The notes under the pieces are model-generated. The model was not told the origin of the DNA and ran no database searches. It worked only from the letters and a program-made list of their open reading frames with translations. Below, piece after piece: positions 8,208 to 24,391 of a DNA stretch of 64,000 bases. The first letter of the stretch is position 1. Each line of letters begins with the position of its first letter. Source of the DNA: Nitrosococcus halophilus Nc 4 (lineage in GTDB: Bacteria; Pseudomonadota; Gammaproteobacteria; Nitrosococcales; Nitrosococcaceae); contig NC_013960.1 of NCBI RefSeq assembly GCF_000024725.1, forward strand, positions 1,386,261 to 1,450,260, read 5' to 3'. The translations under genes and the position numbers were made by a program.

Positions 8208-8990
8208 CTATTCGCCGGAGTCTAAAATCAGCGGAAGCCCATCCTGGAAGGCGGCCAGAGTTCCTGAGGGGATCGGGGTCCAGGTCTCATTATCGGTGAG
8301 GGGAGTGGTGGCGATAACGGCGACTTGATCCCTTTCGGTGGTGACTTCCCGGAAGTCAACGGTCATATCCTTATCCACCAAGTGGGCATGGCCAAAGGGA
8401 TGGCGCCGAACAATATAGCTCAGTTGGGTGGAGGCATGGGCGAATAAATGCTCTCCATTGGAGAGTAGAAAATTAAAGCTGCCGTAAGTGGCGATCTCTG
8501 CTGCCGTGGTGCGCAGGGTTTGGTACAACGCCGGCAGTGAGGGCATGGCAGTGGGATAGCGGTCTTTCAATTGTTGCAGAAGGAGGCAAAAGGCTTTTTC
8601 GCTATCGGTCCCCCCCACCGGACGAAAGTCGGCCAGAAGGGGAGGCGCAAAATTTTTCAAATCACCGTTATGGGCAAAGATCCAATAGCGCCCCCAGAGT
8701 TCGCGGACAAAAGGATGGGTGTTTTCTAAACAGACTTGACCGACAGTGGCTTTACGGATGTGGGCAATCACATTGAGGGACTTAATGGGATACTCCCTGA
8801 CCAAGTGGGCCACGGGGGAGTGGGCCGCAGGCAAAATGTCCACAAAACTCCGGCATCCCTTGCCCTCGAAGAAGGCGATTCCCCAACCATCTCGGTGCTC
8901 GTCGGTGCCGCCACCACGCTGGCTAAACCCCTCGAAGGAGAAACAGATATCGGTGGGCACGTTACAATTCATTCCAAGCAGTTGGCACAT
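8208..8990 (-). CDS. Class II glutamine amidotransferase (YafJ-like)
   Basis: The 260-residue product starts MCQLLGMNCNVPTDICFSF, the YafJ type of class II glutamine amidotransferase in which Cys2 becomes the N-terminal nucleophile after Met removal. That requirement decides the start: the ATG at 8990 exposes Cys2, while the in-frame ATG two codons upstream (8996) would not. AAGG lies nine bases before the chosen codon. Ntn-hydrolase motifs follow: RDGWGIAFFEGKG, HIRKATVGQV, NTHPFV, FAHNGDL and GGTDSEKAF. It hydrolyses glutamine to ammonia, or a gamma-glutamyl compound; the acceptor pathway is unknown. It is a single gene divergent from folE. Confidence 0.88.
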   Translation of the reverse strand: MCQLLGMNCNVPTDICFSFEGFSQRGGGTDEHRDGWGIAFFEGKGCRSFVDILPAAHSPVAHLVREYPIKSLNVIAHIRKATVGQVCLENTHPFVRELWGRYWIFAHNGDLKNFAPPLLADFRPVGGTDSEKAFCLLLQQLKDRYPTAMPSLPALYQTLRTTAAEIATYGSFNFLLSNGEHLFAHASTQLSYIVRRHPFGHAHLVDKDMTVDFREVTTERDQVAVIATTPLTDNETWTPIPSGTLAAFQDGLPLILDSGE

Positions 8991-9142
8991 GGACATAAAC
9001 CTTTAGGGATGCGGCTTTGGCTTTAGACATCAAATTGGTGTAATTCTGTATACTATTAAAAAGTGGTGACAAGTGTTGTTTTAATCTTAATCATAGCGAC
9101 AATGGGAGCGCCTAGGCGTTCCCCGTAGTAGAGCGAGAGCCA

Positions 9143-9784
9143 ATGGATAAAAAATTGACCAAGGCGGTGAAGGAAGGCCACTACATTGGTAGCCTGGATG
9201 TGGAGCCGGGGGAGCACTATGACCGGGAATTTGAAGCCAGCGTGAAAAAAATTTTAACCCGCCTCGGCGAAGATCCTGACCGTGAGGGACTCAAGCGCAC
9301 GCCACAGCGGGTCGCCAAGGCCCTGGATTTCCTCACCAGTGGTTACAATATGACCGTGGAGGAGGTGGTCAGGGATGCCCTTTTTGAGGACGAGTGCGAA
9401 GAAATGGTGATTGTCAAGGATGTGGAATTCTATTCCCTCTGCGAGCATCATGTATTGCCTTTTTTCGGGCGTGCCCATGTGGGTTATTTGCCGAGGGGGC
9501 GCATTGTGGGCCTGAGTAAAATCGCCCGAGTTATTGATGTCTTCGCCCGGCGGCTGCAAGTGCAAGAGCGCCTCACTACCCAAATCGCCACCGGGCTGAT
9601 GTCGGTCCTCAATGCCCGCGGCGTGGGAGTGGTTCTGGAGGCTTGTCATTTTTGCATGGTGATGCGGGGGGTACAGAAACAAAATAGCCAGACGGTCACC
9701 AGCGCCATGTTGGGGACGTTTCGGCAGGACCCTCGAACCCGTGCAGAATTTATGGAATTGATTCGCCGTTCCTCAGGGGGTTAG
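9143..9784 (+). CDS. folE: GTP cyclohydrolase I (FolE type IA)
   Basis: The 213-residue enzyme converts GTP to 7,8-dihydroneopterin triphosphate, the first step of tetrahydrofolate (and queuosine-type deazapurine) synthesis. Zinc ligands Cys100, His103 ([20 protein letters not shown] region) and Cys171 ([11 protein letters not shown]) are all present, as in the zinc-dependent FolE of E. coli. The homodecamer-forming helices around [20 protein letters not shown] are conserved. Length is normal. The gene stands alone between a divergent amidotransferase gene and a phoU remnant, with GAGAG before the ATG. Confidence 0.96.
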
Positions 9785-10527: not shown

Positions 10528-10821
10528 ATGAAGATTGCAGAAGGGGTGCGGGTCACTTCTTTTGTGCCGGGAAGGGTGCGGCTAAGGTTCCAGCTATTAA
10601 AAGGAAATACAGAGCTGGCACAAACAGTTAAAGATGAAGTGGCTTTGGTGCCAGGAATTAAACAGGTGGAGGCAAGTGAGATATCCAGCAGTATCCTGGT
10701 GGTTTATGACAAGCAGCAGATTACTTCACCGGATTCAGTACAAGCGCTAATTACCACCCTAAAAAGATTGTTTCCTGGGGTGGAATTAGGCCAATTGGAG
10801 ACATTTTTAGAATCACAATAG
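10528..10821 (+). CDS. HMA2-like domain protein (copy 1)
   Basis: The 97-residue product consists of one ferredoxin-like heavy-metal-associated type domain of the HMA2 kind: SFVPGRVRLRFQLLKGN, a helix, VPGIKQVEASEISSSILVVYD, and a second helix ending at the C-terminus. The PGRxRxR start and the SSSILVVYD strand recur in the products at 11282 and 12877 and, less exactly, in the N-terminus of the ATPase at 20905. Unlike metallochaperones it has no CxxC pair, so metal binding through the usual site is not expected. It is the first gene of a five-gene plus-strand cluster; a 146-base gap separates it from the DUF5132 gene. Role unknown; protein interaction or membrane-surface binding is a guess. 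Confidence 0.75.
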   Translation: MKIAEGVRVTSFVPGRVRLRFQLLKGNTELAQTVKDEVALVPGIKQVEASEISSSILVVYDKQQITSPDSVQALITTLKRLFPGVELGQLETFLESQ

Positions 10822-10967
10822 GGTAATTGTTTTTTCCCCTAAGGTACTCTATATACATATCTATTGAGTTGTTATGTTTGAGCCGCTAGAGGCGATAAGG
10901 TCCCTGCAGGTGAAAGCTTATTTTATTTCAAAATATTGCCCAGGAATTTTGGTGGAGAGTGAGCTAT

Positions 10968-11285
10968 ATGGCATCCATAGATGACCTCTTCAAGAGTAAT
11001 ACTGCTAAAGGTCTAGCAATTGGTATTGGGGCCTCGGTACTGGCCCCTATTGTGATCCCTGCCGTGGCAGCCGTGGTTCGACCCTTGGCAAAAGCTGCTA
11101 TTAAAACCAGCATTGTGGTTTATGAAAAGGGACGAGAAACCGTCGTTGAAATGGGGGAGGTTGTCGAAGATCTAGTTGCCGAAGCGAGGGCGGAACTTGA
11201 GGAGGGAAGCACGGTGACAGGGGAAGCAGTAGAGACCGCAGAAGAGGCCAGCTCAGGTAAAAGAACGCCTCCGGCTTCAAAATGA
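10968..11285 (+). CDS. DUF5132 family protein
   Basis: The 105-residue product matches the DUF5132 pattern: LFKSNTAKGLAIGIGASVLAP, a hydrophobic Ala/Val-rich hairpin-like stretch (IVIPAVAAVVRPLAKAAIK), YEKGRE, then an acidic amphipathic helix VVEDLVAEARAELEE and a hydrophilic tail. DUF5132 proteins are of unknown function and often neighbour HMA2-like proteins and cation P-type ATPases, as here. I favour the ATG at 10968 because family members begin just before LF(K/R); a GTG three codons upstream is possible. Its stop overlaps the next ATG as ATGA, so the two genes are translationally coupled. It probably associates with the membrane. Confidence 0.75.
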   Translation: MASIDDLFKSNTAKGLAIGIGASVLAPIVIPAVAAVVRPLAKAAIKTSIVVYEKGRETVVEMGEVVEDLVAEARAELEEGSTVTGEAVETAEEASSGKRTPPASK

Positions 11286-11758
11286 CGCCTGCTGCCGAGT
11301 TGAGTCATGGGCTTCCAGGAAGAACTAGAATTCGCATTCGCTGTAAACGGGGTGAACCGGATTATTTTTTACGGGTAGGGCAAGCCCTGGAAAAACTCTC
11401 AGTGGTCCATCAGATTAAAATCAATGATCAGAGCGGCAGTATTCTTATCCACCATACAGAGGGGGCACGGGAGCAAATCGCTCAATATGCCCAATCCACT
11501 GGCCTGTTTATTCTGGAAAATGTCCAATACCAGCAGGACCCCGTACTCCAAAAATCTGCCGCAGGATTTTCCAGTTTAGATTCAGGTTTCAACTGGGCTA
11601 CGAGTGGTCACTTTGATTTTCGCTCGGTCCTCTATGTGGTGCTCATCGTGACGGCCATCGTTCAAATTTTTCGAGGGCAAATTTTGGTACCGGCAACTAC
11701 ACTGCTTTGGTATGCCGTCGATCTCCTGAGGTCCGCCACTAGCAAACAGGGTCCCTAA
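11282..11758 (+). CDS. HMA2-like domain protein with C-terminal membrane segment (copy 2)
   Basis: The 158-residue product has an N-terminal HMA2-like domain (LPGRTRIRIRCKRGEP ... QSGSILIHHTEGA; residues about 7-80) and a C-terminal hydrophobic region, SVLYVVLIVTAIVQIFRG followed by LVPATTLLWYAVDLL, that likely forms one or two membrane helices. The link between them is polar. There is no CxxC. Overlap of four bases with the DUF5132 gene indicates coupled synthesis and suggests that the two products work together at the membrane. Confidence 0.72.
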   Translation: MTPAAELSHGLPGRTRIRIRCKRGEPDYFLRVGQALEKLSVVHQIKINDQSGSILIHHTEGAREQIAQYAQSTGLFILENVQYQQDPVLQKSAAGFSSLDSGFNWATSGHFDFRSVLYVVLIVTAIVQIFRGQILVPATTLLWYAVDLLRSATSKQGP

Positions 11759-11935
11759 GAACTAGATCTTTGGCTGGGAACAAGGTGAGGGTAACCTCAG
11801 GCTTTCAAACGATGTTGAAGCCGCCACCTTCCTAGGGTGATTACCGTCTAAGGGAGGGGATGCGCAAACGCAGGATGACGTAATTGACTACGCCAAATGA
11901 GTAACCAATCCACTATTAAATAAGGAGGATTGATC

Positions 11936-12637
11936 ATGGCTGAGGAAACGAAAAAAACCGCTTCCACCGAGGCGGAAGGGACAGCACAAGCCGGTAGAGG
12001 ATACAGCGTGGGAGCCGCCGGAACCACCGTTAAAGAGGGAGTGGTCAACAGCCTCAGGGGAATTGATGAAATTGAGACCGAGATCGTTTCCTTGGTTCGT
12101 CACACCGTGTCCAATGCGGTGACTGCCACGGGTAATGTGACTGAGGAAACGCTTACTGTCGTCAGGGATGTGGTCAAAGGGGCCGTTTCCGCTACCGAAG
12201 AAGTGGGCACGGGACTTACCATGACCACCAAGAGCGTGGCCAAAGGGGTCGTCATGGGGGTCAGCGATGTGGGGGGTGATGTACTCAAGGTAACCGATAC
12301 CACCGTCAGAGCCCTTGTTCAGGGTGCTTCCAAAGTGGGCGCCGATGTGGGGGTCGTGGCCCGGCGGGCTGTCGATGGGGTGACTGAGGCGGCCAACGAA
12401 GTCGGGGTCAATGTGATTGATGTGGTTCGGGGAGCGGCAATGGCTGCCATCGAAGCGGCCGGAGCCATTGGGAATGCTGCCGTTGCTACTGTCAAGGATA
12501 TGCTGGTTGGCGTGGTGGGAGGAGTCAAGGAGATTGCCAGTGCCGCCTTACCCAAAGGGGAGCAAGCCCAGCTTGAGGAAAGCTCGGAACAGTTGGAACC
12601 CTCCTCCCGGAAGAAGTCATCAGCGAAAGCGGGATAA
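11936..12637 (+). CDS. Protein of seven tandem 22-residue amphipathic repeats (apolipoprotein-like)
   Basis: The 233-residue product contains seven contiguous 22-residue units at residues 50-203, beginning IVSLVRHTVSNAVTAT, TLTVVRDVVKGAVSAT, LTMTTKSVAKGVVMGV, VLKVTDTTVRALVQGA, VGVVARRAVDGVTEAA, VIDVVRGAAMAAIEAA and AVATVKDMLVGVVGGV. Each has hydrophobic residues in i/i+3/i+4/i+7 spacing and often ends in Val-Gly. A weaker eighth unit precedes them. The 22-residue period with amphipathic helices recalls exchangeable apolipoproteins and some phasin or LEA-like proteins that coat lipid surfaces; the link is by pattern only. Both termini are hydrophilic; the tail is Glu/Ser/Lys rich. The start was set at ATG 11936, seven bases after AAGGAGG. 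No Cys. It lies inside the HMA2/DUF5132 cluster. Confidence 0.75.
   Translation: MAEETKKTASTEAEGTAQAGRGYSVGAAGTTVKEGVVNSLRGIDEIETEIVSLVRHTVSNAVTATGNVTEETLTVVRDVVKGAVSATEEVGTGLTMTTKSVAKGVVMGVSDVGGDVLKVTDTTVRALVQGASKVGADVGVVARRAVDGVTEAANEVGVNVIDVVRGAAMAAIEAAGAIGNAAVATVKDMLVGVVGGVKEIASAALPKGEQAQLEESSEQLEPSSRKKSSAKAG
12083..12544 (+). repeat. Seven in-frame 66-base coding repeats
   Basis: The stretch encodes seven consecutive 22-residue amphipathic units without insertions or deletions. The units are diverged at the amino-acid level, so the array is old rather than a recent slippage product. Confidence 0.75.
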
Positions 12638-12801: not shown

Positions 12802-12876
12802 AAGATTGTCATAAAAACGTAATAAGGGCCTGCTTTAATGAGCCTCGGCAGAAGGTTACTTCTTGTTGAGGTGCGT

Positions 12877-13275
12877 ATGGTTCAATACATTCATCATGTA
12901 CCTGGTCGGTTGCGGGTCAAGCTTGCTTCCCTCAAGCGGAATCCTGTTCAGGCAGCAGCCCTGAAGGCACTATTGGAAGGGTTTGAAGGGATAGGCAAAG
13001 CCGAGGTCAACCCGGTGACGGGAAGTATCCTCGTGGCCTACCATCGGGAAAGAACCCAACCCCAAGCTATTTTGCAAGCGCTTCATGATCATGGCTATTG
13101 CCGTCAATTAGTGACCATGCCCCCTGTAAGCGCTGCCTCCTCCAAACAGAAGGTGCAAACGACGGGCAAAGCGGTCGGTCAGGTAGGGGAGAAGTTTGGA
13201 AAAGCCGTTCTGGATGTGGTGGTGGAGAAAATGGTGGAGCGCTCTGCTGTGGCCTTGATCGGCGCTATCTTATAA
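12877..13275 (+). CDS. HMA2-like domain protein with amphipathic tail (copy 3)
   Basis: The 132-residue product has an N-terminal HMA2-like domain (HHVPGRLRVKLASLKRN ... NPVTGSILVAYH) and a C-terminal region rich in Lys, Val and Gly (GKAVGQVGEKFGKAVLDVVV) ending in a hydrophobic helix AVALIGAIL. The NPVxGSxLVxF/Y strand is almost identical to that in the N-terminus of the P-type ATPase at 20905-24153. I prefer the ATG at 12877, which follows GAGG by five bases and starts MVQYIHHVPGR; an in-frame ATG at 12838 would add 13 residues. No CxxC. Function unknown; membrane association is likely from the tail. Confidence 0.7.
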   Translation: MVQYIHHVPGRLRVKLASLKRNPVQAAALKALLEGFEGIGKAEVNPVTGSILVAYHRERTQPQAILQALHDHGYCRQLVTMPPVSAASSKQKVQTTGKAVGQVGEKFGKAVLDVVVEKMVERSAVALIGAIL

Positions 13276-13412: not shown

Positions 13413-14585
13413 CTAAGGGAGAGCCTGCGAGAATGAATTCTGTTCATGCCGCGCTCGCCAAAAGGGAGAGTGGAGATATCGGGTTTCATAACGGTAATAG
13501 TGCTGCCAGGTAGGCAGATATTCCGTGAATTGCCGTTTAACGGAATCCCTATAATGGTGCAGGCTGTTCATTTCCCCGCTTTCCAGATAGCCGACAATAG
13601 CCCGCGCCGCGTGGCATCCTGAATGCATGGAAAACCCAATCCCCAATGAGGAAAGCGGATCAAAACTCGCTGCCGCATCGCCTACGGACAGCCAATTTTT
13701 TCCTACTGTTTGGTCGAGGATATGGGTGTGGGCGGGGCGCACGGTCAGCGTGGTATCTGCCGCGACGGCGGTCTGTCGCAACCGGGCATCGCTGTTTGGC
13801 GCTTGTTTCAGCAGGGATTCCCAGCAATTAAGCTTATCCTGCCCTTGTTCCCGCCATAGCCCGGCATCCGTCATCCAGGTGACGACCAGGCGGTTTTCCG
13901 GCAGGGGAGCGGAATACCACCAGCCTTCCGGTGCGCTTTCAATGACGATGTCTTTCGACCAGGGGGCCGCGGGGTTTATTTCGAAGAACCGACTTACGCC
14001 AATCAAGGCATCGTAGTGTAGGGAGGTTGCCCCTAATCTGCGGGCGATATTGGCTTTTCGCCCCGTGGCATCCACCAGGAAGCGCGCCTTCAAGGCAAAC
14101 CGCTTGCCCGATTGGTGCCGCAGGTGCAACAGATAACCCCCTTCTTCATCTTCCGCCGGAAGTATCGTTTCTACCCGGCATGAGAGATACAACTTCCCCC
14201 CCCGTAGATGGAAAGTTTCGGCCAGCATGGCATCAAAACAGCGACGATCCAACAAATAACCCTCACCCGACCAATGGCGGAGAGAATGTTGCAGCAGCGG
14301 GATATGACTCCCCCAGCAGGCTTGTACTGCAAAGCTTTCCACATATGCCGCCTGGGCAAGAAAGTGCTCTTTTATTTCCAGATAATCAAGCAGGGGCAAT
14401 AGCGCCGATGAGACATTTTCTCCCAACCGGGTGGCATGGTAGAAGGAGGATTCCACCAACGCCACCCGGTAAGCAAGCCTATGGGTGCGCAGGGCAAGGG
14501 CGCAGGCAGATCCCGCCGGCCCGCCGCCCACGATGGCCACATCCACTTCCCCGAGCAGGGGGAGACAATTCTTGTTATCTGTCAC
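13413..14585 (-). CDS. LodB-like FAD-dependent maturase of a CTQ oxidase
   Basis: The 390-residue flavoprotein has an N-terminal Rossmann FAD site (VDVAIVGGGPAGSACALALR), the ATG-type motif DATGRKANIARRLG and a C-terminal GDAAASFDPLSSLGIGFSM segment. This is the group of tryptophan-halogenase-like FAD proteins to which LodB and GoxB belong. Known members are needed to build the cysteine tryptophylquinone cofactor of their LodA/GoxA partner. The GTG start overlaps the lodA-like stop (TAGTG), so translation is coupled and one LodB per LodA synthesis is ensured. There is no separate ribosome site. Convergent with the HMA2-like cluster. Confidence 0.85.
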   Translation of the reverse strand: MTDNKNCLPLLGEVDVAIVGGGPAGSACALALRTHRLAYRVALVESSFYHATRLGENVSSALLPLLDYLEIKEHFLAQAAYVESFAVQACWGSHIPLLQHSLRHWSGEGYLLDRRCFDAMLAETFHLRGGKLYLSCRVETILPAEDEEGGYLLHLRHQSGKRFALKARFLVDATGRKANIARRLGATSLHYDALIGVSRFFEINPAAPWSKDIVIESAPEGWWYSAPLPENRLVVTWMTDAGLWREQGQDKLNCWESLLKQAPNSDARLRQTAVAADTTLTVRPAHTHILDQTVGKNWLSVGDAAASFDPLSSLGIGFSMHSGCHAARAIVGYLESGEMNSLHHYRDSVKRQFTEYLPTWQHYYRYETRYLHSPFWRARHEQNSFSQALP

Positions 14586-16636
14586 TAGAAACGGGTCCGC
14601 GTGCCCCGTCGCGGCGTGCGCTGGCGTTGCGACTCAGCTACGGCGATTTCCCTGAACATTTCTTCTTCAACGCGAAGGCGCAACAACTCGGCATGTTCTG
14701 GAGCTAGTTTTTGCTGGGGTTTTGAATACCAGATAGGAACGGTCGTTTCACTGTCATCGGGATTATGGCTGATCTGGCTGACCGGCACGTCCTGGTATTC
14801 AAACATGCCATGCAGGCGCTCCGTTTCCACAAGGTAGGGAAAGCGATTGGAGTTCGCTCCTGAATTTTGGTTGCGGATAAAGCCGAGATAAGACCATTCG
14901 GTAATCATCTGTACATAGCTGTTGATGCCACGGGCATAATTCACCTGCAACCCGGCTGGGGTATGGGCGAGCGCCTGCTCCGCGGCCGTGAGATCCCCCG
15001 TCAGCACATCCCACGGTGCTTGCGGCGGCCACCAATAAGCATAATAGCTCGGTGGTAGCGGCATACCGTTCAGCTTATTGATGTCGGGATCGGTGAAATT
15101 AACGTACTGAATTGTGCAATTGAAGAAATCCGCCTGCCATGGAATCGCCATGCGCTTGGTCAGATCGCCCGGCTCGCACCCTCCGCCTTCTGTTTCATCC
15201 CGTGAAGGGGAAAGGCCGTGCATCTGGTAATTGCTCTCATCGCCAGATTGCGCGATACGGTAAGGTGATGCATAAATGGCAGGGTTCTGCATGCTCCAGG
15301 TCACCTCGATACCGGGACACATGGGCAAGCCCACGCAATTGCCCATCGCCGCACTGGTGGCAGAACAGAGGGGATAGGGCTGGTAGTTTGGATCATTGAC
15401 AAATTTCCCTTCCGCCCATTGAGAGAGCAGGAAATACTGGGTCTGGTTCAATGTCAGAAATTTTTCAATATCCACGTTACTCACCGAGTTACTGCCGGAG
15501 TTGAGGGGCATCATCGGAATATTATCCTCGCTGAACAGGGTAATGCTTTCGCCCTCAATCCCGTTCGGCGTATAAATAGTCGGTTTGCGGAAGTAAGAAA
15601 AATATTGTTGGCGGTTTGCAGCATTGGCGGGGGAAGGATCGCTGAAATCGAAAATATACGAGCAGAAGGCGCTCATTGATTGCACGTTCGAGACCCACTG
15701 ATAACGTGAAATACGTTGGATGATCGGCAGAATGTCTCGCTGGTAGTTAGCGACGAAGTCCGTATTCCATGCCCCATTGGCATGCATATCCGGCACCAGG
15801 TTGAAATGACGCACACCCACATCAAACATCGTATCGTCCAGGGTGGAGATATTGACGATTTCCGGTGCGAAATCAGGGGAACAGCATGCGACCCAGCTAT
15901 TCAGGCTGATGCGGGTCCCGTCTGTGAATTCTACCGTGCACTCAACTGGCCCATCCGCGATATCGTCATACCAGGTATCGGCACCGCCATAACTGGTAAT
16001 TGGCTCATCCCCGCCGGCACGGCCATAAGCGCCCAATACGAGCAAACGGCCTTCCCTGTCGGTCTTAATCGTGCCCAGGGAATTGATTGGCCAGCCATAT
16101 TTGGGGCTGGAATTAGGAAAACTGCCATGGGGGTAATCCGAAGGGATATTGGTGCGAGCGACTTCAATACTCTGGTTTGCACCGCTGAGGGTGCGTGGAC
16201 CCGGATCGATAATTAATTTCTGGCGAGCAGAAGAATCGGTAACCGTATTATTCCTCAGGGGGATTTTTTGATTTTTATAGCTATTGCCTTCACCCAATAG
16301 TAGGTTTCCCTGCAATTCCGAAAACTGATACCAAGCGGCTTTCTTGTTGGCGAGATGCACCGTCCAGTGGATAGAGGCTACGCCCTCGGTAGATAGCGTT
16401 ATCTCCTCATAATTTTTATTATCTTTGGTGCGCATAACGCGGAATGGCTGCGCCTGGCGCTTCACTCTTCCAGCCGAATCTTTAAAAGAAGAAAACGCCG
16501 CACCCGTTGCATTGCCGTTAGCATCGCATTCCAACGGTAACCCGCCGATTTCAGTTGGGGCAAGATAGAAATCGGTAGGGCTGTTGCCCAATCGGGCTAT
16601 GCCAATGGAAGGAGATAAAAGATAGGTATAACTCAT
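14585..16636 (-). CDS. LodA/GoxA-like CTQ quinoprotein amino-acid oxidase
   Basis: The 683-residue product has the LodA hallmark start SPSIGIARLGNSP and the PGIE motif (NCVGLPMCPGIEVTW). LodA family enzymes oxidise amino groups (lysine epsilon-amine or glycine) to give aldehyde or glyoxylate, ammonia and hydrogen peroxide, using a cysteine tryptophylquinone made from a Cys and a Trp. Cys434 and Trp500 (AIPWQADF) are the likely pair: they are 66 residues apart, against 65 for Cys516/Trp581 of LodA as I recall it. AAAGG precedes the ATG at 16636, and the conserved N-terminus starts there; an extension to 16717 has no support. Substrate unknown. The lodB-like gene follows by overlap, and iscB has inserted upstream. 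Confidence 0.85.
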   Translation of the reverse strand: MSYTYLLSPSIGIARLGNSPTDFYLAPTEIGGLPLECDANGNATGAAFSSFKDSAGRVKRQAQPFRVMRTKDNKNYEEITLSTEGVASIHWTVHLANKKAAWYQFSELQGNLLLGEGNSYKNQKIPLRNNTVTDSSARQKLIIDPGPRTLSGANQSIEVARTNIPSDYPHGSFPNSSPKYGWPINSLGTIKTDREGRLLVLGAYGRAGGDEPITSYGGADTWYDDIADGPVECTVEFTDGTRISLNSWVACCSPDFAPEIVNISTLDDTMFDVGVRHFNLVPDMHANGAWNTDFVANYQRDILPIIQRISRYQWVSNVQSMSAFCSYIFDFSDPSPANAANRQQYFSYFRKPTIYTPNGIEGESITLFSEDNIPMMPLNSGSNSVSNVDIEKFLTLNQTQYFLLSQWAEGKFVNDPNYQPYPLCSATSAAMGNCVGLPMCPGIEVTWSMQNPAIYASPYRIAQSGDESNYQMHGLSPSRDETEGGGCEPGDLTKRMAIPWQADFFNCTIQYVNFTDPDINKLNGMPLPPSYYAYWWPPQAPWDVLTGDLTAAEQALAHTPAGLQVNYARGINSYVQMITEWSYLGFIRNQNSGANSNRFPYLVETERLHGMFEYQDVPVSQISHNPDDSETTVPIWYSKPQQKLAPEHAELLRLRVEEEMFREIAVAESQRQRTPRRGTRTRF

Positions 16637-16800
16637 GTGTCGGCCTTTTCTGATAATTAAGTTAGTGTAACGAGGTATGATATGGCTCTTCTTCCAGGAA
16701 GGAGTGCATGGACGCACGACGCCCCCCCAGCGAGAGTGCGCAGCTTGCTACGCGGTGAGCGCGAGGGTCAGCATGACTTGCTGTCGTCGCCGTGTTTGGC

Positions 16801-18084
16801 TCAGACAGCCGATAGCCCGTAGTCATAACCATCACCTCTTTGGATGAGTTTGAAATGCTTCCAGTTGGCCGAAATCTTCCGGGCCTTGGCCTTGATGTCA
16901 AAGGCGCCGTTAGCCCGGATGCCTGCCAGTATTCCGGTGTGTGTGCCCCCATACTTACCTTTGGGCTGAATGAGCCTCACCAGATCACCCGTTTGAAATC
17001 CTCTTACTCGCTTGCACCTTCCGGCCTTCCCGCGTGGAAATCCGTACTTATCAGTGCGCGCAACTTGCCGTGTGCCGCGTCCAGTGGCCTTTATTTGAAG
17101 TGCTCGGTAGCCTTCGGTGAGGGTCACCTGCTCACCGATTTCACCCACGCACGCGGCATCAATCCAATGGTCTTTGCCGTAGCTTTGACTGATCCTGTTT
17201 TTCTTAGTCCTTCCGCCACTCCAAAAAGAAGTCGGCAACCCCACTGATTGAATAGCGCGACCAACAGCGTAGCGGGTAGCATTGACCGCGGCGGCATCTT
17301 TTAGGGGCTGATTGGCTTTGGATTGGATCTGAGAATATCCAAACTCTGTCGCCGTTTTACTATTCTTCTTTTGGTTGCAGGGCGTGCACGCCAAGGTTAA
17401 ATTAGATACCCGGTGACTGCCACCCCTAGATCTAGGGACGATGTGTTCAACTTCCAGAGGGACATCCTTGTTGCTACAGTAGGCGCACTTCCTGCCCCAC
17501 TTCTCTAGTAGGTATTCGCGTACCTCATACCCCATCAATTCGCCTTGCTGATATTCAACGCCGCTGATTTCCGGGTTTTGAATTTTCTGCATATCAAAGC
17601 GTACGGTTTCAATGTGGCATTCAGATAGGGGCGCTCTATCGAGTAGACGGTTAAACCATGTCGAAACATTCTCAACCCGTGATCGCAGTGAAGGCGGTAA
17701 CCAACCGGCGGGTCTTGTTCTATTCAAAAACCGTGGCGCACGATAGCGGGTCTTTCTGCCTCTACGACCTCGGCGCAAACTGCGCCGCTTCTCTAACCTA
17801 TCGCGTACAGATTGCCCTCTGTGCTCCAGGTTCGCGGCCCACAGCACGACGCGCCCCTGTTGAGGAAAATTCCCAACTAAAGCCAATCCGGTGGTTTTGC
17901 TGCCCGGATCAACCCTGAACTCAACCGGCTGCGGGTTAGAATCAACTCTATATTTCAGGATGATCGTAAATGGCTGCATCCGATAAACGCCAGCCTTCCC
18001 ATCCCGCAACAACCGCCTAGCCCTTGAGGGCCTGCACGGCATCAGCGCTGTTTTATCAGTGTCTAATACAAAAACTCTATTCAT
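16801..18084 (-). CDS. iscB: IscB RNA-guided HNH/RuvC endonuclease
   Basis: The 427-residue product has the complete IscB layout. The N-terminal PLMP domain reads VLDTDKTALMPCRPSRARRLL. RuvC-I is VDPGSKTTG (Asp59), the arginine-rich bridge helix is at 99-119, and RuvC-II is HIETVRFD (Glu159). The HNH domain has zinc cysteines 200, 203, 233 and 236 with catalytic His214 in VEHIVPRSRGG and Asn228; RuvC-III is HWIDAACV (Asp309). A basic C-terminal domain follows. All nuclease residues are intact. IscB proteins, ancestors of Cas9, are encoded by IS200/IS605-type elements and cut DNA guided by an omegaRNA transcribed from just upstream; that RNA is visible at 18085-18296. No tnpA transposase is present, so the element cannot move alone. 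Confidence 0.95.
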   Translation of the reverse strand: MNRVFVLDTDKTALMPCRPSRARRLLRDGKAGVYRMQPFTIILKYRVDSNPQPVEFRVDPGSKTTGLALVGNFPQQGRVVLWAANLEHRGQSVRDRLEKRRSLRRGRRGRKTRYRAPRFLNRTRPAGWLPPSLRSRVENVSTWFNRLLDRAPLSECHIETVRFDMQKIQNPEISGVEYQQGELMGYEVREYLLEKWGRKCAYCSNKDVPLEVEHIVPRSRGGSHRVSNLTLACTPCNQKKNSKTATEFGYSQIQSKANQPLKDAAAVNATRYAVGRAIQSVGLPTSFWSGGRTKKNRISQSYGKDHWIDAACVGEIGEQVTLTEGYRALQIKATGRGTRQVARTDKYGFPRGKAGRCKRVRGFQTGDLVRLIQPKGKYGGTHTGILAGIRANGAFDIKAKARKISANWKHFKLIQRGDGYDYGLSAV

Positions 18085-19670: not shown

Positions 19671-19715
19671 GTGGTCTTGGTGCCTTAGTGGTGATCTTGT
19701 GAATTACCCGGGCTA
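19671..19715 (-). repeat. Half copy of the MITE-like TAGCCTG repeat
   Basis: Read on the minus strand this is TAGCCCGGGTAATTCACA, AGATCACCACTAAGGC and ACCAAGACCAC, matching the left end of the copies at 48322 and 63431. Its first three bases (TAG) are the stop codon of the MetK-like gene, so the element lies exactly at, and probably replaced, the original gene end. Confidence 0.65.
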
Positions 19716-20900
19716 ATCAAGCAACACCTGGGGATCCACCTGTTCCCAGGGCAGGATCATGTCCATCCGCCCAAAATGCCCATAGGTAGCCAGTTTTCGG
19801 TAAAACCCGTCTTTATGTATGCTCGGGAGTTCCCGTAGTCGAAATTTCCGAATAATCCCACCAAGGCGAAAGTCAAAACTTTCTTCAAGCCGCCGCTGGA
19901 TCTCACTATCCTCGATTTTCCCGGTACCGAAAGTTTCCACTTGGATGCTCACCGGTCGGGTTTGACCAAGAGTATAGCTCAGTTGCACTTCACATTCTTC
20001 CGCCAATTTAGCCGCTACCACGGTACGGGCCGCATGGCGGGCGGCATAGGCCCCCACCCGGTCAATGCGGGTGGGATCTTTGCCACTCAAGGCAGCGCCG
20101 CTGTGGCGTGAGTAACCTCCATAATTATCGACTGCATTTTTGCGGCCAGTGAGTCCGGCGTGTAAGGCCGGGCCGCCGCCGATAACCGGTCCATCCGGGT
20201 TGATCCAGATTTTGGTTTTATTATCCAGGGAAAGGGACTCATGCTGGAAAACAGGCTCAACCACATGTTGGATTAGATCGTTTCGTAAGGTATTTAGAGC
20301 AGGGCTTCCGGATTCTTTTTGGGTGGCGACGACGGTGATGCTGTGAATTCGGTCAGGTCGGCGGTTTCGATATTCCACGCCGACCTGAGTCTGCCCGTCG
20401 GCAGAAAGGTAAGGCAGTTGGTTCTTAAGCCTGACGACGGATAAGCGCCGGGCCAGTTGATGGGCCAACCAGATGGGAAGGGGCATAAAGGCCGCCGTTT
20501 GATTACAGGCAAAGCCAAACATGGTGGCTTGATTGGGCACCGTGAGTTGATCGATTTCTTCCTCACTCATATGGTCTTCATGGGCCGATACCTGATGATC
20601 CAGAGGGAGTTCTTGAAAACTGGTCATGATCGTCGACTCCCGGGCATTGAAGACCTGCTCCGGGTAAGCAATCTCCTGAACCACGCGGCGGGCGATACCG
20701 GGAATATCCAGAGTGGCCTTGGAGGCAAAGCGGACGGCCAGGAACAGGACTCCGGAGGAGACCACACATTCGGCAATGACCCGGGACAAGGGGTCTTGGA
20801 CCAAAAAGGAGTCCACAATGGCATCGCTAATCTGGTCGCAAAGTTTATCCGGGTGGCCCTCGGTGACCGATTCAGAGGTGAACATGAAGTCTGTTTTCAT
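19713..20900 (-). CDS. metK: Divergent S-adenosylmethionine synthetase (MetK paralogue)
   Basis: The 395-residue product is a methionine adenosyltransferase homologue: FTSESVTEGHPDKLCDQISD at the start, NPDGPVIGGGPALHAGLTGR in the middle and SGKDPTRIDRVGAYAAR near the end are the MetK substrate and metal-binding blocks. It is clearly divergent: the GAGDQG nucleotide-binding loop of standard MetK is replaced by TVPNQATMFG. It may still make SAM, or an altered product. AGGAG precedes the ATG at 20900. The ATPase stop lies four bases upstream, so the two genes form an operon. A half repeat provides the stop codon. A second, canonical metK elsewhere in the genome would be expected. Confidence 0.85.
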   Translation of the reverse strand: MKTDFMFTSESVTEGHPDKLCDQISDAIVDSFLVQDPLSRVIAECVVSSGVLFLAVRFASKATLDIPGIARRVVQEIAYPEQVFNARESTIMTSFQELPLDHQVSAHEDHMSEEEIDQLTVPNQATMFGFACNQTAAFMPLPIWLAHQLARRLSVVRLKNQLPYLSADGQTQVGVEYRNRRPDRIHSITVVATQKESGSPALNTLRNDLIQHVVEPVFQHESLSLDNKTKIWINPDGPVIGGGPALHAGLTGRKNAVDNYGGYSRHSGAALSGKDPTRIDRVGAYAARHAARTVVAAKLAEECEVQLSYTLGQTRPVSIQVETFGTGKIEDSEIQRRLEESFDFRLGGIIRKFRLRELPSIHKDGFYRKLATYGHFGRMDMILPWEQVDPQVLLD

Positions 20901-20904
20901 GGTG

Positions 20905-23900
20905 TTAGGATTCTCCTTGAGGGTTGGCTTCGGCTGCGGGAGGGTCGGTTTCCGGGCTGAGAGGGGCTGGAAGTTTGCCTGTAGGCTTGGTGGCCTCGTT
21001 GATGAGGAAGGGGAGGGTGGCCCCGGCCCCAATGACCAAACCATCTATGAGGCTGATAGGCGTGATACCCAGAATATTGCGCAGTCCCGGAATCAAGCTG
21101 GCCAAGGCTTGGGCTCCAATGGAGCCCCCCACCGCCCAGTTAAGGTAAGGGTTAGGCGGAGGCCGGCCGCCGCTCAAGAGGCTCTGCTGGGGGAAGCGGC
21201 AGCTATAGGAGTGGAGCAATTGGGCTAAGGTCAAGCTGGTAAAGGCATGGGTGCCTGCCTTAGGGCCAGGGCCATAACGCCACAGGGCATAGCCATAACT
21301 GGATAAGCTGCCGGCAGCGATCGCCACCGATTCCAGCCCCATTCGCTTGAGTTCTTGGCGTTGAATAATGGATTCTCGGGGATCCCGGGGAGATTTATTC
21401 AGGATCTCCTTATCGGGGGGATCGAGGGCCAGAGCGAGACCGGGAAAGATATCTGTGATGAGGTTGATCCATAGTAACTGCATGGGATTGAGGGGTTGTC
21501 CGAGGCCGAGGGCGATAGCGGCCAACATCACCTCAATTTCGCTAAAGTTGGTGGCCAGCAAGAAATGGATCGATTTGCGGATATTACCGTAGATAGTGCG
21601 GCCCTGTTCCACAGCGCCGACCATGGTGTGCAAATTATCATCTTCCAGCACCACATCGGCGACCCCCCGGGCCACTTCCGTTCCCGTACTGCCCATGGCA
21701 ATCCCGATATCGGCGGCCTTCAGCGCCGGGCTATCGTTGATCCCGTCGCCGGTCATGGCTACCACTTTTCCTGCCCGTTGCAAGGCTTGCACGATTTGCA
21801 GTTTGTGGGCCGGGCTGACCCGGGAGAAAACATGGACCTGCTGCACCAGCCCCGATAGCAGTTCTGGGTCTAGTTTTTCCAAATGGGTGGAATCGAGGAT
21901 TTGGAGTTGTTCCCCTTTGGCCAGGCTAAGTTGTTTTCCAATGGCATAGGCGGTAGCGCTTTGATCGCCGGTAATCATAACGGTATCGATACCGGCGGCG
22001 TGGAAGCGATTCATCAGCTCGGCCATGCCGGTGCGTACCGGATCGCTCATTCCCACCAGGCCAAGCCAAGTCAGTTTGGCGTTTTTGGAGGGTTGATCCG
22101 GCTCTAGCCAAGTGTAGGCAACGCCCAGCACCCGCAGGGAGTCTGCCGCCATGGCCTCATTCTGGGCTAGAAAAGCGGCTCGGTCCTCCTCCTGGATTTC
22201 AACTTGCCTGCCATTGTGGGTATGCCAGCGGCACATGGCCAACACCTGGGAGGGACTGCCCTTGACGGCTAAAAACCGCTTGCCCTCGGGAGAGGGAGAA
22301 GCGTGGGTAGTTTTCATATAGTTGCGGCCTTCGGCACGGTATTGAGTTTCGAGCCTGGGAAACTCTTGCCGCAGCTGGTGGATATCAATACCCGCCAGGC
22401 CGGTGGCTTCTAGCAAGGCATTTTCCGTGGAGGAACCGTTGGTGGTGTTGTCTGTCTCCAATTCGGATTCGTTACAGAGGGCGATGACTTGGAAAAGACG
22501 CAAGAGATCTTGGAGTTGCGCCGGCTCGATCCGATCCCCAGAGAGGTAGAAATGGCCATCGTTGACGATAATTTCTCCCCTTCCCGTGTTGATATTTACT
22601 ACGGTCATACGGTTTTTGGTAAGGGTGCCGGTCTTGTCCAGGCAAATCACCTGTATCGAGCCCAGGGTTTCCACTGCATCCAGCCGCCGGATCAGTACCT
22701 TGCGCCGGTTCATGGTTCGCATGCCCAGGGCCAGGGTGGTGGTGGCCACCGGGGGCAGGCCTTCCGGTACGGCGGCAACCGCCAGGGAGATAGAGGATTT
22801 AAGCATTTCCAACCAGCTATAGCCCCGCAACAAGCCCACCACATAGACTCCTCCGCAAACGGCAGCGCTGAGGATGGCCAGTTGGGTCCCTATTTGGTCC
22901 AGTTGCCGTTCCATAGGGGTCTCCGGGAGCTTAGTGCTGCCCACCATAGCCTGAATTTTGCCGATTTCGGTGGCTGTTCCAGTGGCGACGACAATGCCCC
23001 GGCCGTTGCCCCCGGTGACCATCGTTCCCATGTAGCTCATGTTCAAGCGGTCGCCGAGGGGCGTCTCCTCTTTGCCGAGAAACTCAGGGTCTTTGGCAAC
23101 GGGCAAGCTTTCTCCGGTTAAGGCGGACTCATCCAGACTGAGGCGTTTCGCGGCTAATAATCGGATGTCGGCAGGGACATAATTGCCAGGGGCCAGCAAG
23201 ATCACATCCCCCGGGACCACTTCTTCTGCAGACATTTGCAGGGGTTGACCTTCCCGGAGCACCACGGTGGTATGGGAGTCCATCTGGGCAAGGGCAGTAG
23301 TGAGGGTCCGTTCCGCGTATCGTTCGGTTACAAAGCCGATGGTGGCGTTGATGAGCACCACTCCGAGGATAACGGCGGCATCCACCATCCCCCCGGTGAA
23401 AATAGCAATACCCGCAGAAGCGCCTAGCAACCAAACCGGGAGGCTATTGAACTGGGACAAAAAGATCTGCAGGGGGGAGCGGGCTTGGGCTTGCAGCAAT
23501 TGATTAGGCCCATAATGGGCCAGGCGTTGGCTGGCCTCGGCGGTCGTCAGGCCGGAATGGAAATCACTGTCTAAGTGCTGCAGCACCTGGGCTGATTCAA
23601 GGCTGTGCCAGGTGGCGCCGTCCCCAGTGGGCGCGGGCGTCGACAGGGGGAGTGAGTTGTTTTGATGGGCGCTTTCCTTGGCGTGCCCCCTGGAGGCGTC
23701 CTTCGGTTGTTCCGATTTGCTTCCGGCGAATTGGTCTGGTTTAGGCTCGTTGCGTCGGGTCCAGTACTCGAAAATCGAAGTAATGGTGGCAAAGCCACTT
23801 GACGAGCCGTGAGCTTTGGAGGCTTGGGGACTTTTCTTTTCAGGGGGAGGGATATCCCGCACCACAGTGGCGACCTGCTGCTGGATTAAAGCAATAATCT

Positions 23901-24153
23901 CGCTGAGGGGAACAGCAGGGTCGAATTGAACTAATACGCTTCCCAGCACAGGATTTATGCTGGCGCTATGGATTGATTTTAGTGCTTGTAGCTTTTTCTC
24001 TAGGGGTGCTTTCAGGTGTCGGGCACGGTAAAGAAGCGGTATTTTAAACCGCGCCCGACCCCTCACGGTGGTGTGCACGGGCTGTACTAGGGGAAAGCGA
24101 ATGAGATCGGAAGACTGGGGAGGATTTTTTCTTTGTTGGTGGCTGATGGGCAT
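20905..24153 (-). CDS. Cation-transporting P-type ATPase (P2-like) with N-terminal HMA2-like domain
   Basis: The 1082-residue product is a P-type ATPase. Residues about 25-110 form an HMA2-like domain (VHTTVRGRARFKIPLLYRAR ... NPVLGSVLVQFD) like those in the 10.5-13.3 kb cluster, then comes a Pro/Ser linker and a P2 (Ca/Mg/Na-type) core: cation ATPase N (LTTAEASQRLAHYGPNQL), TGES loop, PEGLPPVATTTLALG in M4, the phosphorylation site DKTGTLTK at Asp506, and GDGINDSPALKAADIGIAMG. It probably moves a divalent cation outward using ATP; the ion cannot be set by eye. The HMA-like domain has no CxxC. I chose ATG 24153 (GGGGA eight bases before) over a GTG at 24168. metK-like follows after four bases. 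Confidence 0.9.
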   Translation of the reverse strand: MPISHQQRKNPPQSSDLIRFPLVQPVHTTVRGRARFKIPLLYRARHLKAPLEKKLQALKSIHSASINPVLGSVLVQFDPAVPLSEIIALIQQQVATVVRDIPPPEKKSPQASKAHGSSSGFATITSIFEYWTRRNEPKPDQFAGSKSEQPKDASRGHAKESAHQNNSLPLSTPAPTGDGATWHSLESAQVLQHLDSDFHSGLTTAEASQRLAHYGPNQLLQAQARSPLQIFLSQFNSLPVWLLGASAGIAIFTGGMVDAAVILGVVLINATIGFVTERYAERTLTTALAQMDSHTTVVLREGQPLQMSAEEVVPGDVILLAPGNYVPADIRLLAAKRLSLDESALTGESLPVAKDPEFLGKEETPLGDRLNMSYMGTMVTGGNGRGIVVATGTATEIGKIQAMVGSTKLPETPMERQLDQIGTQLAILSAAVCGGVYVVGLLRGYSWLEMLKSSISLAVAAVPEGLPPVATTTLALGMRTMNRRKVLIRRLDAVETLGSIQVICLDKTGTLTKNRMTVVNINTGRGEIIVNDGHFYLSGDRIEPAQLQDLLRLFQVIALCNESELETDNTTNGSSTENALLEATGLAGIDIHQLRQEFPRLETQYRAEGRNYMKTTHASPSPEGKRFLAVKGSPSQVLAMCRWHTHNGRQVEIQEEDRAAFLAQNEAMAADSLRVLGVAYTWLEPDQPSKNAKLTWLGLVGMSDPVRTGMAELMNRFHAAGIDTVMITGDQSATAYAIGKQLSLAKGEQLQILDSTHLEKLDPELLSGLVQQVHVFSRVSPAHKLQIVQALQRAGKVVAMTGDGINDSPALKAADIGIAMGSTGTEVARGVADVVLEDDNLHTMVGAVEQGRTIYGNIRKSIHFLLATNFSEIEVMLAAIALGLGQPLNPMQLLWINLITDIFPGLALALDPPDKEILNKSPRDPRESIIQRQELKRMGLESVAIAAGSLSSYGYALWRYGPGPKAGTHAFTSLTLAQLLHSYSCRFPQQSLLSGGRPPPNPYLNWAVGGSIGAQALASLIPGLRNILGITPISLIDGLVIGAGATLPFLINEATKPTGKLPAPLSPETDPPAAEANPQGES

Positions 24154-24391
24154 TTCAGTGTTCCCCACTGAATAGCAAAGTTTGTTTGTCTTTCAATGCC
24201 CTGGGGTAAGGTTTCCCCTTAGACAAGGTGGTTATTTAGGATAGGTGCGCTGGGTAGTATTCCAGATCTGGAGATTCCAAGCATTTGCTCAATTCTCTCC
24301 ATTTAAAACACCACCAATGTGCTTTTAGGCACAGCCCAATGAATGTAAGCATAGTCATTTTTTGGGGAAATCAAAGCGAAGGGCAAAGGTG

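Follow-up and report, generated by a model that had tools for sequence, protein, structure and literature searches.

A family of 22-residue amphipathic repeat proteins with discrete unit numbers in an HMA_2/P2-type ATPase gene cluster of Nitrosococcus halophilus and other proteobacteria

The repeat gene and its neighbours

The window, i.e. the whole stretch of 64,000 nucleotides of Nitrosococcus halophilus Nc 4 that was analysed (contig NC_013960.1, positions 1,386,261 to 1,450,260 of the forward strand; coordinates below count from its first letter), carries at 11936..12637 on the plus strand a coding sequence (P0001) for a repeat protein of 233 amino acids, here called REP, with homologs at 57 and 52% identity. 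An AGGAGG ribosome-binding site, read in the sequence at 11923..11928 (plus strand), lies 7 bases 5' of the ATG at 11936, and eight contiguous units of 22 residues, 66 bp each, occupy 12017..12544 (plus strand; aa 28-203) between tails (aa 1-24 and about 208-233) which are of low confidence and probably disordered. A promoter and terminator scan gave signals at or below chance, and inverted repeats were looked for and not found. TRF reported no tandem repeat in the DNA, which suggests that the duplication is old or that the repeat is kept at the protein level.

The gene order around REP is HMA2a, DUF5132, HMA2b, REP and HMA2c. HMA2a (10528..10821, plus strand) is a small HMA_2 protein of 97 aa (PF19991, E 9.7e-15), followed by a DUF5132 protein of 108 aa (10959..11285, plus strand; PF17195, E 6.2e-15) with one strongly hydrophobic stretch by hydropathy. 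The start of HMA2b (11282..11758, plus strand; 158 aa; PF19991, E 3.4e-15), which has a C-terminal hydrophobic segment, overlaps the stop of DUF5132 by 4 bp. HMA2c (12838..13275, plus strand; PF19991, E 1.5e-12) combines HMA_2 with a long C-terminal helix ending in ERSxxALIxAL, its true start being perhaps the inner ATG at 12877. The preliminary description had placed the repeat in a cluster with other probable membrane-associated small proteins, with which the hydrophobic segments of DUF5132 and HMA2b agree; the cation-pump cluster around REP was absent from it.

This pump is encoded on the opposite strand, together with an S-adenosylmethionine synthetase, six to eleven kb beyond the HMA2a-HMA2c group. 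The P2-type cation ATPase (20905..24168, minus strand) has an N-terminal HMA_2 domain and the motifs PEGLP, DKTGT and GDGIND, with neither CPC nor SPC, and the HMA_2 stretches of the window are, as read in the sequences, without CxxC. NLITD and ATNFSE were likewise read in the ATPase and are, with PEGLP, presumably equivalent to Ca2+-pump sites. The synthetase MAT (19713..21044, minus strand) is the second of the genome, a different one being located elsewhere at G000:C2:536653-537072; its true start is probably near 20903, as homologs mostly align from residue 48-49 and a few from 36-40. MAT accompanies the HMA_2 ATPase across loci.

Between the halves of the HMA_2 module, 13413-16717 on the minus strand encodes a LodA-type oxidase (710 aa) and a Trp_halogenase/FAD flavoprotein (390 aa). 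A 427-aa protein at 16801-18084 (minus strand) contains RRXRR (PF14239, E 3.5e-71) and HNH, by which domain content we take it to be IscB-like; a guide RNA might be encoded near its gene. Elsewhere in the same genome (L013, C2:1858431) a P-type ATPase-like frame of 718 aa, which matches HMA_2 weakly at its N-terminus, adjoins an ORF with a CxxCH motif.

Periodicity, amphipathic face and composition of REP

Seven repeats had been counted at 12083-12544 in the preliminary description, and these are indeed gapless and in frame, the frame from 12083 being in phase with the ATG at 11936 and residues 50-203 forming seven gapless 22-mers. The count was one short, as an eighth unit (repeat 1, 12017-12082, aa 28-49) precedes them, so that the former seven are repeats 2-8 of eight gapless units across 176 residues. 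The perfect 22-residue period described then is statistically firm and is not replaced by another value: comparison of REP with itself by offset peaks at 22 (z 9.0), followed by 44 (z 6.2), 26 (z 5.0) and 11 (z 3.5), and the peak is matched at any offset by none of 5000 composition shuffles. Offset 22 still has a z of 6.25 under a null that keeps the hydrophobic/polar pattern, and it is the peak in all 17 aligned members of the family. This alignment comprises 17 of 19 sequences, with L044, near-identical to L043, and L049 left out; in the latter no in-frame start codon was found before the repeats, its repeat region being open and its stop the gene's own end.

The amphipathic moment is equally present. 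The hydrophobicity spectrum of REP peaks at 98.0 degrees, i.e. 3.67 residues per turn or an 11/3 helix, a peak reached by 0/2000 shuffles, and charge is segregated between the faces: charged residues are found at 1/96 apolar-face and 35/80 polar-face positions of the window protein, and at 12/1152 versus 419/960 positions in 12 long members. None of 5000 shuffles of the window REP yielded an arc of six positions carrying fewer than eight charges. When 11 members are placed on the 11/3 helix, the apolar face consists of six contiguous positions from 295 to 98 degrees, mostly V/A/T/G/L/I, and the other five are polar, K/R gathering at 131 degrees, D/E at 229 degrees. The coherent moment across the 176 residues is 0.324, the maximum of 2000 shuffles being 0.192.

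Most known examples of long 11/3 amphipathic helices without gaps come from animals, e.g. synuclein, perilipins and apolipoproteins; in apolipoproteins the units are punctuated by proline, and their apolar face bears Leu and aromatics. The window REP contains no proline, no aromatic residue and 4.0% Leu in its 176 residues, and in all 17 aligned members the repeats are free of proline and have 0-1 aromatics. On the Fauchere-Pliska scale at 98.2 degrees, which we take to be that of HELIQUEST, REP has a moment of 0.33 and fractions of 0.47 hydrophobic, 0 aromatic and 0.20 charged residues. In Table 1 of PMC5889406, the same four measures are 0.30/0.47/0.02/0.24 for alpha-synuclein, 0.35/0.37/0.01/0.23 for Plin3, 0.257/0.35/0.002/0.15 for Plin4 and 0.39/0.40/0.065/0.35 for ApoA-I, which is listed there with 7 prolines and 6.5% aromatic residues (PMC5889406). 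By moment and composition REP thus groups with alpha-synuclein and the perilipins rather than with ApoA-I. It shares with alpha-synuclein, Plin3 and Plin4 the 11/3 periodicity, gapless repeats, a small-residue apolar face and almost no aromatics, but differs in that its repeats are fixed at 22 and that it is bacterial and located within a transporter cluster; REP is net negative whereas Plin4 is net positive. Sequence homology between REP and alpha-synuclein stays below significance in the PDB profile search, where three of the seven sub-threshold matches are alpha-synuclein (E 0.23, 0.7 and 1.4), the first of these being the best.

The label "apolipoprotein-like" of the preliminary description was a fair lead to the kind of helix, and wrong as a family. 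REP has the 22-residue amphipathic period of the exchangeable apolipoproteins (PF01442), but no Pfam match, no proline, no aromatics and 4% Leu. Three Pfam families are matched by any of the 17 members at E<=1, and Apolipoprotein is absent from them, as are the phasin and LEA families which had also been suggested for comparison.

Distribution of the family and of the cluster

REP has no match in Pfam at E<=0.1, none in NCBIfam at E<=1 and nothing significant in the PDB, and neither plasmid records nor 50,697 phage records contain a match at E<=0.01. The scan of genome contigs with REP yielded two relatives, in a Rhodospirillales MAG (L002) and in Nitrosospira sp. Nsp14 (L003). In the family of the latter a full-length match is found in 11/125 genomes, a twelfth, weak hit being left out and one of the eleven, G592, having no in-frame start codon that could be found. 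The window's class has REP in 2/369 genomes, namely the window genome and G895, and the order of the Rhodospirillales MAG has 3/317 with full-length REP besides five shorter forms, one weak hit being dropped. Among 95 relatives including the window genome, REP is intact in the window genome alone; G003 of the same genus has a decayed copy, at a locus (L004) where the cluster has decayed with REP and HMA2b fragmented and HMA2c and DUF5132 still open. Dropped as relatives were L005 (E 3.8e-4) and L006 (E 5.6e-4), which are Ala-rich lipoprotein-like ORFs, as well as G510 (E 5.3e-4, a 1308-aa frame) and G994 (E 4.7e-4).

The length of the family varies in whole units. Eleven long members align over 176 columns free of indels; six shorter paralogs of the Nitrosospira family are without exactly 88 columns, which equals 4 x 22. 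Of the short forms in the order of the Rhodospirillales MAG, L098, L099 and L101 show three windows placed exactly 22 residues apart, of which the second fits repeat 2 best and the third repeat 8, and L100 and L102 show two windows each at this spacing, L100 having in addition one weak off-grid window. For each of these five forms the two top windows have scores of 34-47 and the first unit 28-36, compared to a 99% shuffle level of about 30, by an ad hoc cut-off with a shuffle control added afterwards; as the first unit of L099 is not beyond chance, two or three units are present there. The unit numbers of REP seen in nature are consequently two to three, four and eight, and in this series the ends are kept and the middle is variable.

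At all 16 eight-repeat loci read (the window, L002, L003, L043-L052, L061, L096 and L097; they come from the Nitrosospira family, the order of the Rhodospirillales MAG and, in the window's class, the window genome and a further one), DUF5132, HMA2b and HMA2c stand beside REP. The HMA_2-domain P2-type ATPase and the SAM synthetase lie within the stretch read at 13 of the 16; in L002 they are on another contig (L064), and they were not found within the stretches fetched for L096 and L097. Of 494 genome entries, 13 have REP and 28 have DUF5132, which is present in 13/13 REP genomes versus 15/481 others. The Fisher value of 2.6e-18 for this co-occurrence is overstated because related genomes, for which it is not corrected, are treated as independent, and duplicates between the two genome samples are possible among the REP-less genomes.

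The 15 REP-less DUF5132 loci that were read (L072-L085 and, from the phylum sample, L062) cover 14 of the 15 REP-less DUF5132 genomes among the 494, G736 being left out. HMA2b is present at 14/15, the ATPase with the synthetase at 11/15 and a separate HMA2c at 3/15 (L072, L076 and L078), absences being uncertain in places because some of these stretches end with the contig. REP is thus not essential to the core module, which occurs without it at these 15 loci, but tracks HMA2c, found with all 16 eight-repeat copies and with 3/15 REP-less ones. Of the DUF5132 (PF17195)/HMA_2 (PF19991) clusters, a subset hosts REP. L063 was rejected as a cluster locus, as its DUF5132 is below the cut-off and no cluster gene was found.

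At the three REP-less loci with a separate HMA2c, the slot between HMA2b and HMA2c holds an MgtE-like gene in L072, a CNNM gene in L078 and, in L076, an MgtE-like gene together with a gene for a 345-aa protein (8533-9570) with hydrophobic C-terminal segments. Apolipoprotein is the best Pfam match of this protein, with an E of 2.1e-5 that does not reach the curated cut-off. An amphipathic repeat-like region in it has offset peaks at 15, 26 and 11. MgtE-like genes are also located between REP and HMA2c in L003, L043, L044 and L045 of the Nitrosospira family, and in L061 the place is taken by Mntp, along with a partial match to MgtE. DUF445 genes occur near DUF5132 in L003 (4815-6047), L043, L045, L046, L047, L051 and L062 (9184-10455), whereas none was found when the stretches for L002, L048 and L049 were searched. 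At 6887-7244 of L049 (G592) HMA2c is matched in two overlapping pieces, which suggests a broken or misassembled frame.

The stronger result of this analysis is that the repeat family is conserved, comes in discrete unit numbers and is tied to an HMA_2/P2-ATPase cluster. HMA_2 proteins and DUF5132, together with an HMA_2-fused P2-type ATPase and a second SAM synthetase, make up this cluster, which recurs in ammonia oxidisers and other proteobacteria and is apparently undescribed: no description of a DUF5132/HMA_2 cluster was found in the open-licence literature, print beyond that scope possibly differing, and the papers there on an "HMA2 domain" concern, by title and abstract, plant NLR receptors and are irrelevant here.

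Membrane helix, solenoid or coiled coil

What REP does can be proposed tentatively. We give slightly less than an even chance to its being a peripheral-membrane repeat helix that serves a divalent-cation transport module, and infer membrane contact, partner and role as follows. REP would be cytoplasmic and attached peripherally to the inner membrane, each 22-residue unit making six turns of an 11/3 helix (two 11-mers), and the units would jointly form an unbroken apolar face of small residues (V/A/G/T), about 196 degrees wide, with K/R along one edge of the polar face and D/E near its middle. The apolar face would adsorb weakly and cooperatively to the inner membrane, so that the strength of binding would depend on how many units a copy has (two to three, four or eight). 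Membrane-bound REP may then mark or order a patch that holds the small HMA_2/DUF5132 proteins and the HMA_2-fused P2-type ATPase; HMA2c would be the likeliest direct partner, as its gene is found with every eight-repeat copy read. The MgtE-like, Mntp and CNNM families and the ATPase motifs point to divalent cations, and from the ATPase and transporter families alone the ion transported may be Ca2+, Mn2+ or Mg2+.

The exact period of 22, the near charge-free apolar face and the synuclein- and perilipin-like values are in favour of the membrane helix, as is a unit number that changes in whole 22-mers, which one would expect of an avidity tuned by length; for Plin4, droplet binding improved with construct length (PMC5889406). 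Odd and even units do not alternate, the mean score in 11 members being 1.09 at distance one and 0.81 at distance two, and the genomic context, with the apolipoprotein-like protein in the L076 slot, MgtE-like, Mntp and CNNM genes in the slot elsewhere and the co-occurrence with DUF5132, agrees as well. On the other hand, the HELIQUEST-style score of REP is low (mean 0.09; above 0.68 in 10/159 windows), and the net charge is -6 per 176 residues. Plin4 reportedly no longer bound droplets once its net charge per 33-mer had been reversed from +1 to -1, unless it was made more hydrophobic. The module is present without REP, tape-measure PHROG models match as well, and the best AlphaFold models are helical stacks; the amphipathic pattern of REP would also suit a soluble solenoid or a coiled coil. 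That the protein lies on a lipid surface, as the preliminary description had suggested, is not borne out by the low score, the negative charge and the AlphaFold stack. A transmembrane REP is unlikely with a maximum 19-residue hydropathy of 1.49.

AlphaFold weakly favours a soluble alpha-solenoid, possible but on the unlikely side, in which each 22-mer would be a helix plus turn and the whole a rod-like docking scaffold for HMA2c or the cytoplasmic HMA_2 domain of the ATPase. The best model has eight helices, one per unit, interrupted where units end, close to the Gly in units 3-7, and the two best models (mean pLDDT 69.9 and 69.2) reach a pTM of 0.66 and 0.67. Both have DHR4 as first Foldseek match (E 1.5e-4 and 2.3e-3), and the first model superposes on DHR4 (PDB 5cwb) with a VIA Z of 17.0 and an rmsd of 2.9 over 183 residues, above the helical-repeat warning level of 13. 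However, only 3/10 models have a mean pLDDT above 60 and seven are below 45, from three-row alignments, and the structures matched best are designed repeat proteins, to which regular repeats are known to be drawn. DHR4 itself is a designed protein with no homology to REP, which has equal 22-mers rather than paired helices and weak model support, and a BFVD fold search gave nothing at E<=0.001. A two-layer solenoid is mildly argued against by the missing A/B alternation of odd and even units and by the three short forms in which a repeat-8-like unit directly follows a repeat-2-like one, a junction that would flip the layer. With two to three, four and eight units, nature supplies a length series on which membrane avidity could be told from a folded solenoid.

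Less probable still is a structural spacer in the form of a coiled coil with hendecad (11-residue) repeats or of an oligomeric helical bundle. The peak at 3.67 residues per turn is the hendecad value, and tape-measure PHROG families match up to 16/17 members (best E 2.6e-6), as helical repeats would. The apolar face of six positions in eleven, rich in Val/Ala/Gly/Thr and with 4% Leu in the window protein, would nevertheless make a poor narrow coiled-coil core; REP has, moreover, no match in the 50,697 phage records at E<=0.01, and its neighbours are not phage genes. A phage tape measure as such was rejected: phrog_58 in 16/17 and phrog_1272 in 15/17 members were judged compositional, phage and plasmid records gave no match, and the window REP is matched by these families weakly. 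Chlorosome CsmC, matched by 4/17 members with a best E of 0.0042, was too weak.

With several small membrane proteins and a P-type ATPase together, the cluster resembles a ferrosome (fez) locus, i.e. an iron organelle the membrane of which REP would coat. We consider this highly improbable, and in its strict form it was rejected. FezB is a P1B-6 ATPase, whereas the cluster pump has P2-type Pfam domains and PEGLP with no CPC or SPC, and CxxC is missing from the window HMA_2 stretches. No FezC-like gene is present in the window cluster: FezC is a DUF4405-like cytochrome (PMC11334425), and a scan of 20 window proteins showed no DUF4405. An acidocalcisome-like idea was dropped because a PPK2 gene, near the L003 cluster, was found in 1/23 stretches searched.

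Returning to the peripheral-membrane helix, a bolder and rather doubtful extension would make REP a bacterial functional counterpart of synuclein and perilipin 4, a length-tunable coat, extended or cut back by whole 22-residue units, that organises a dedicated membrane domain or compartment round the ATPase and the small HMA_2 adaptors; in L076 the slot would be taken by an unrelated, membrane-anchored apolipoprotein-like protein.
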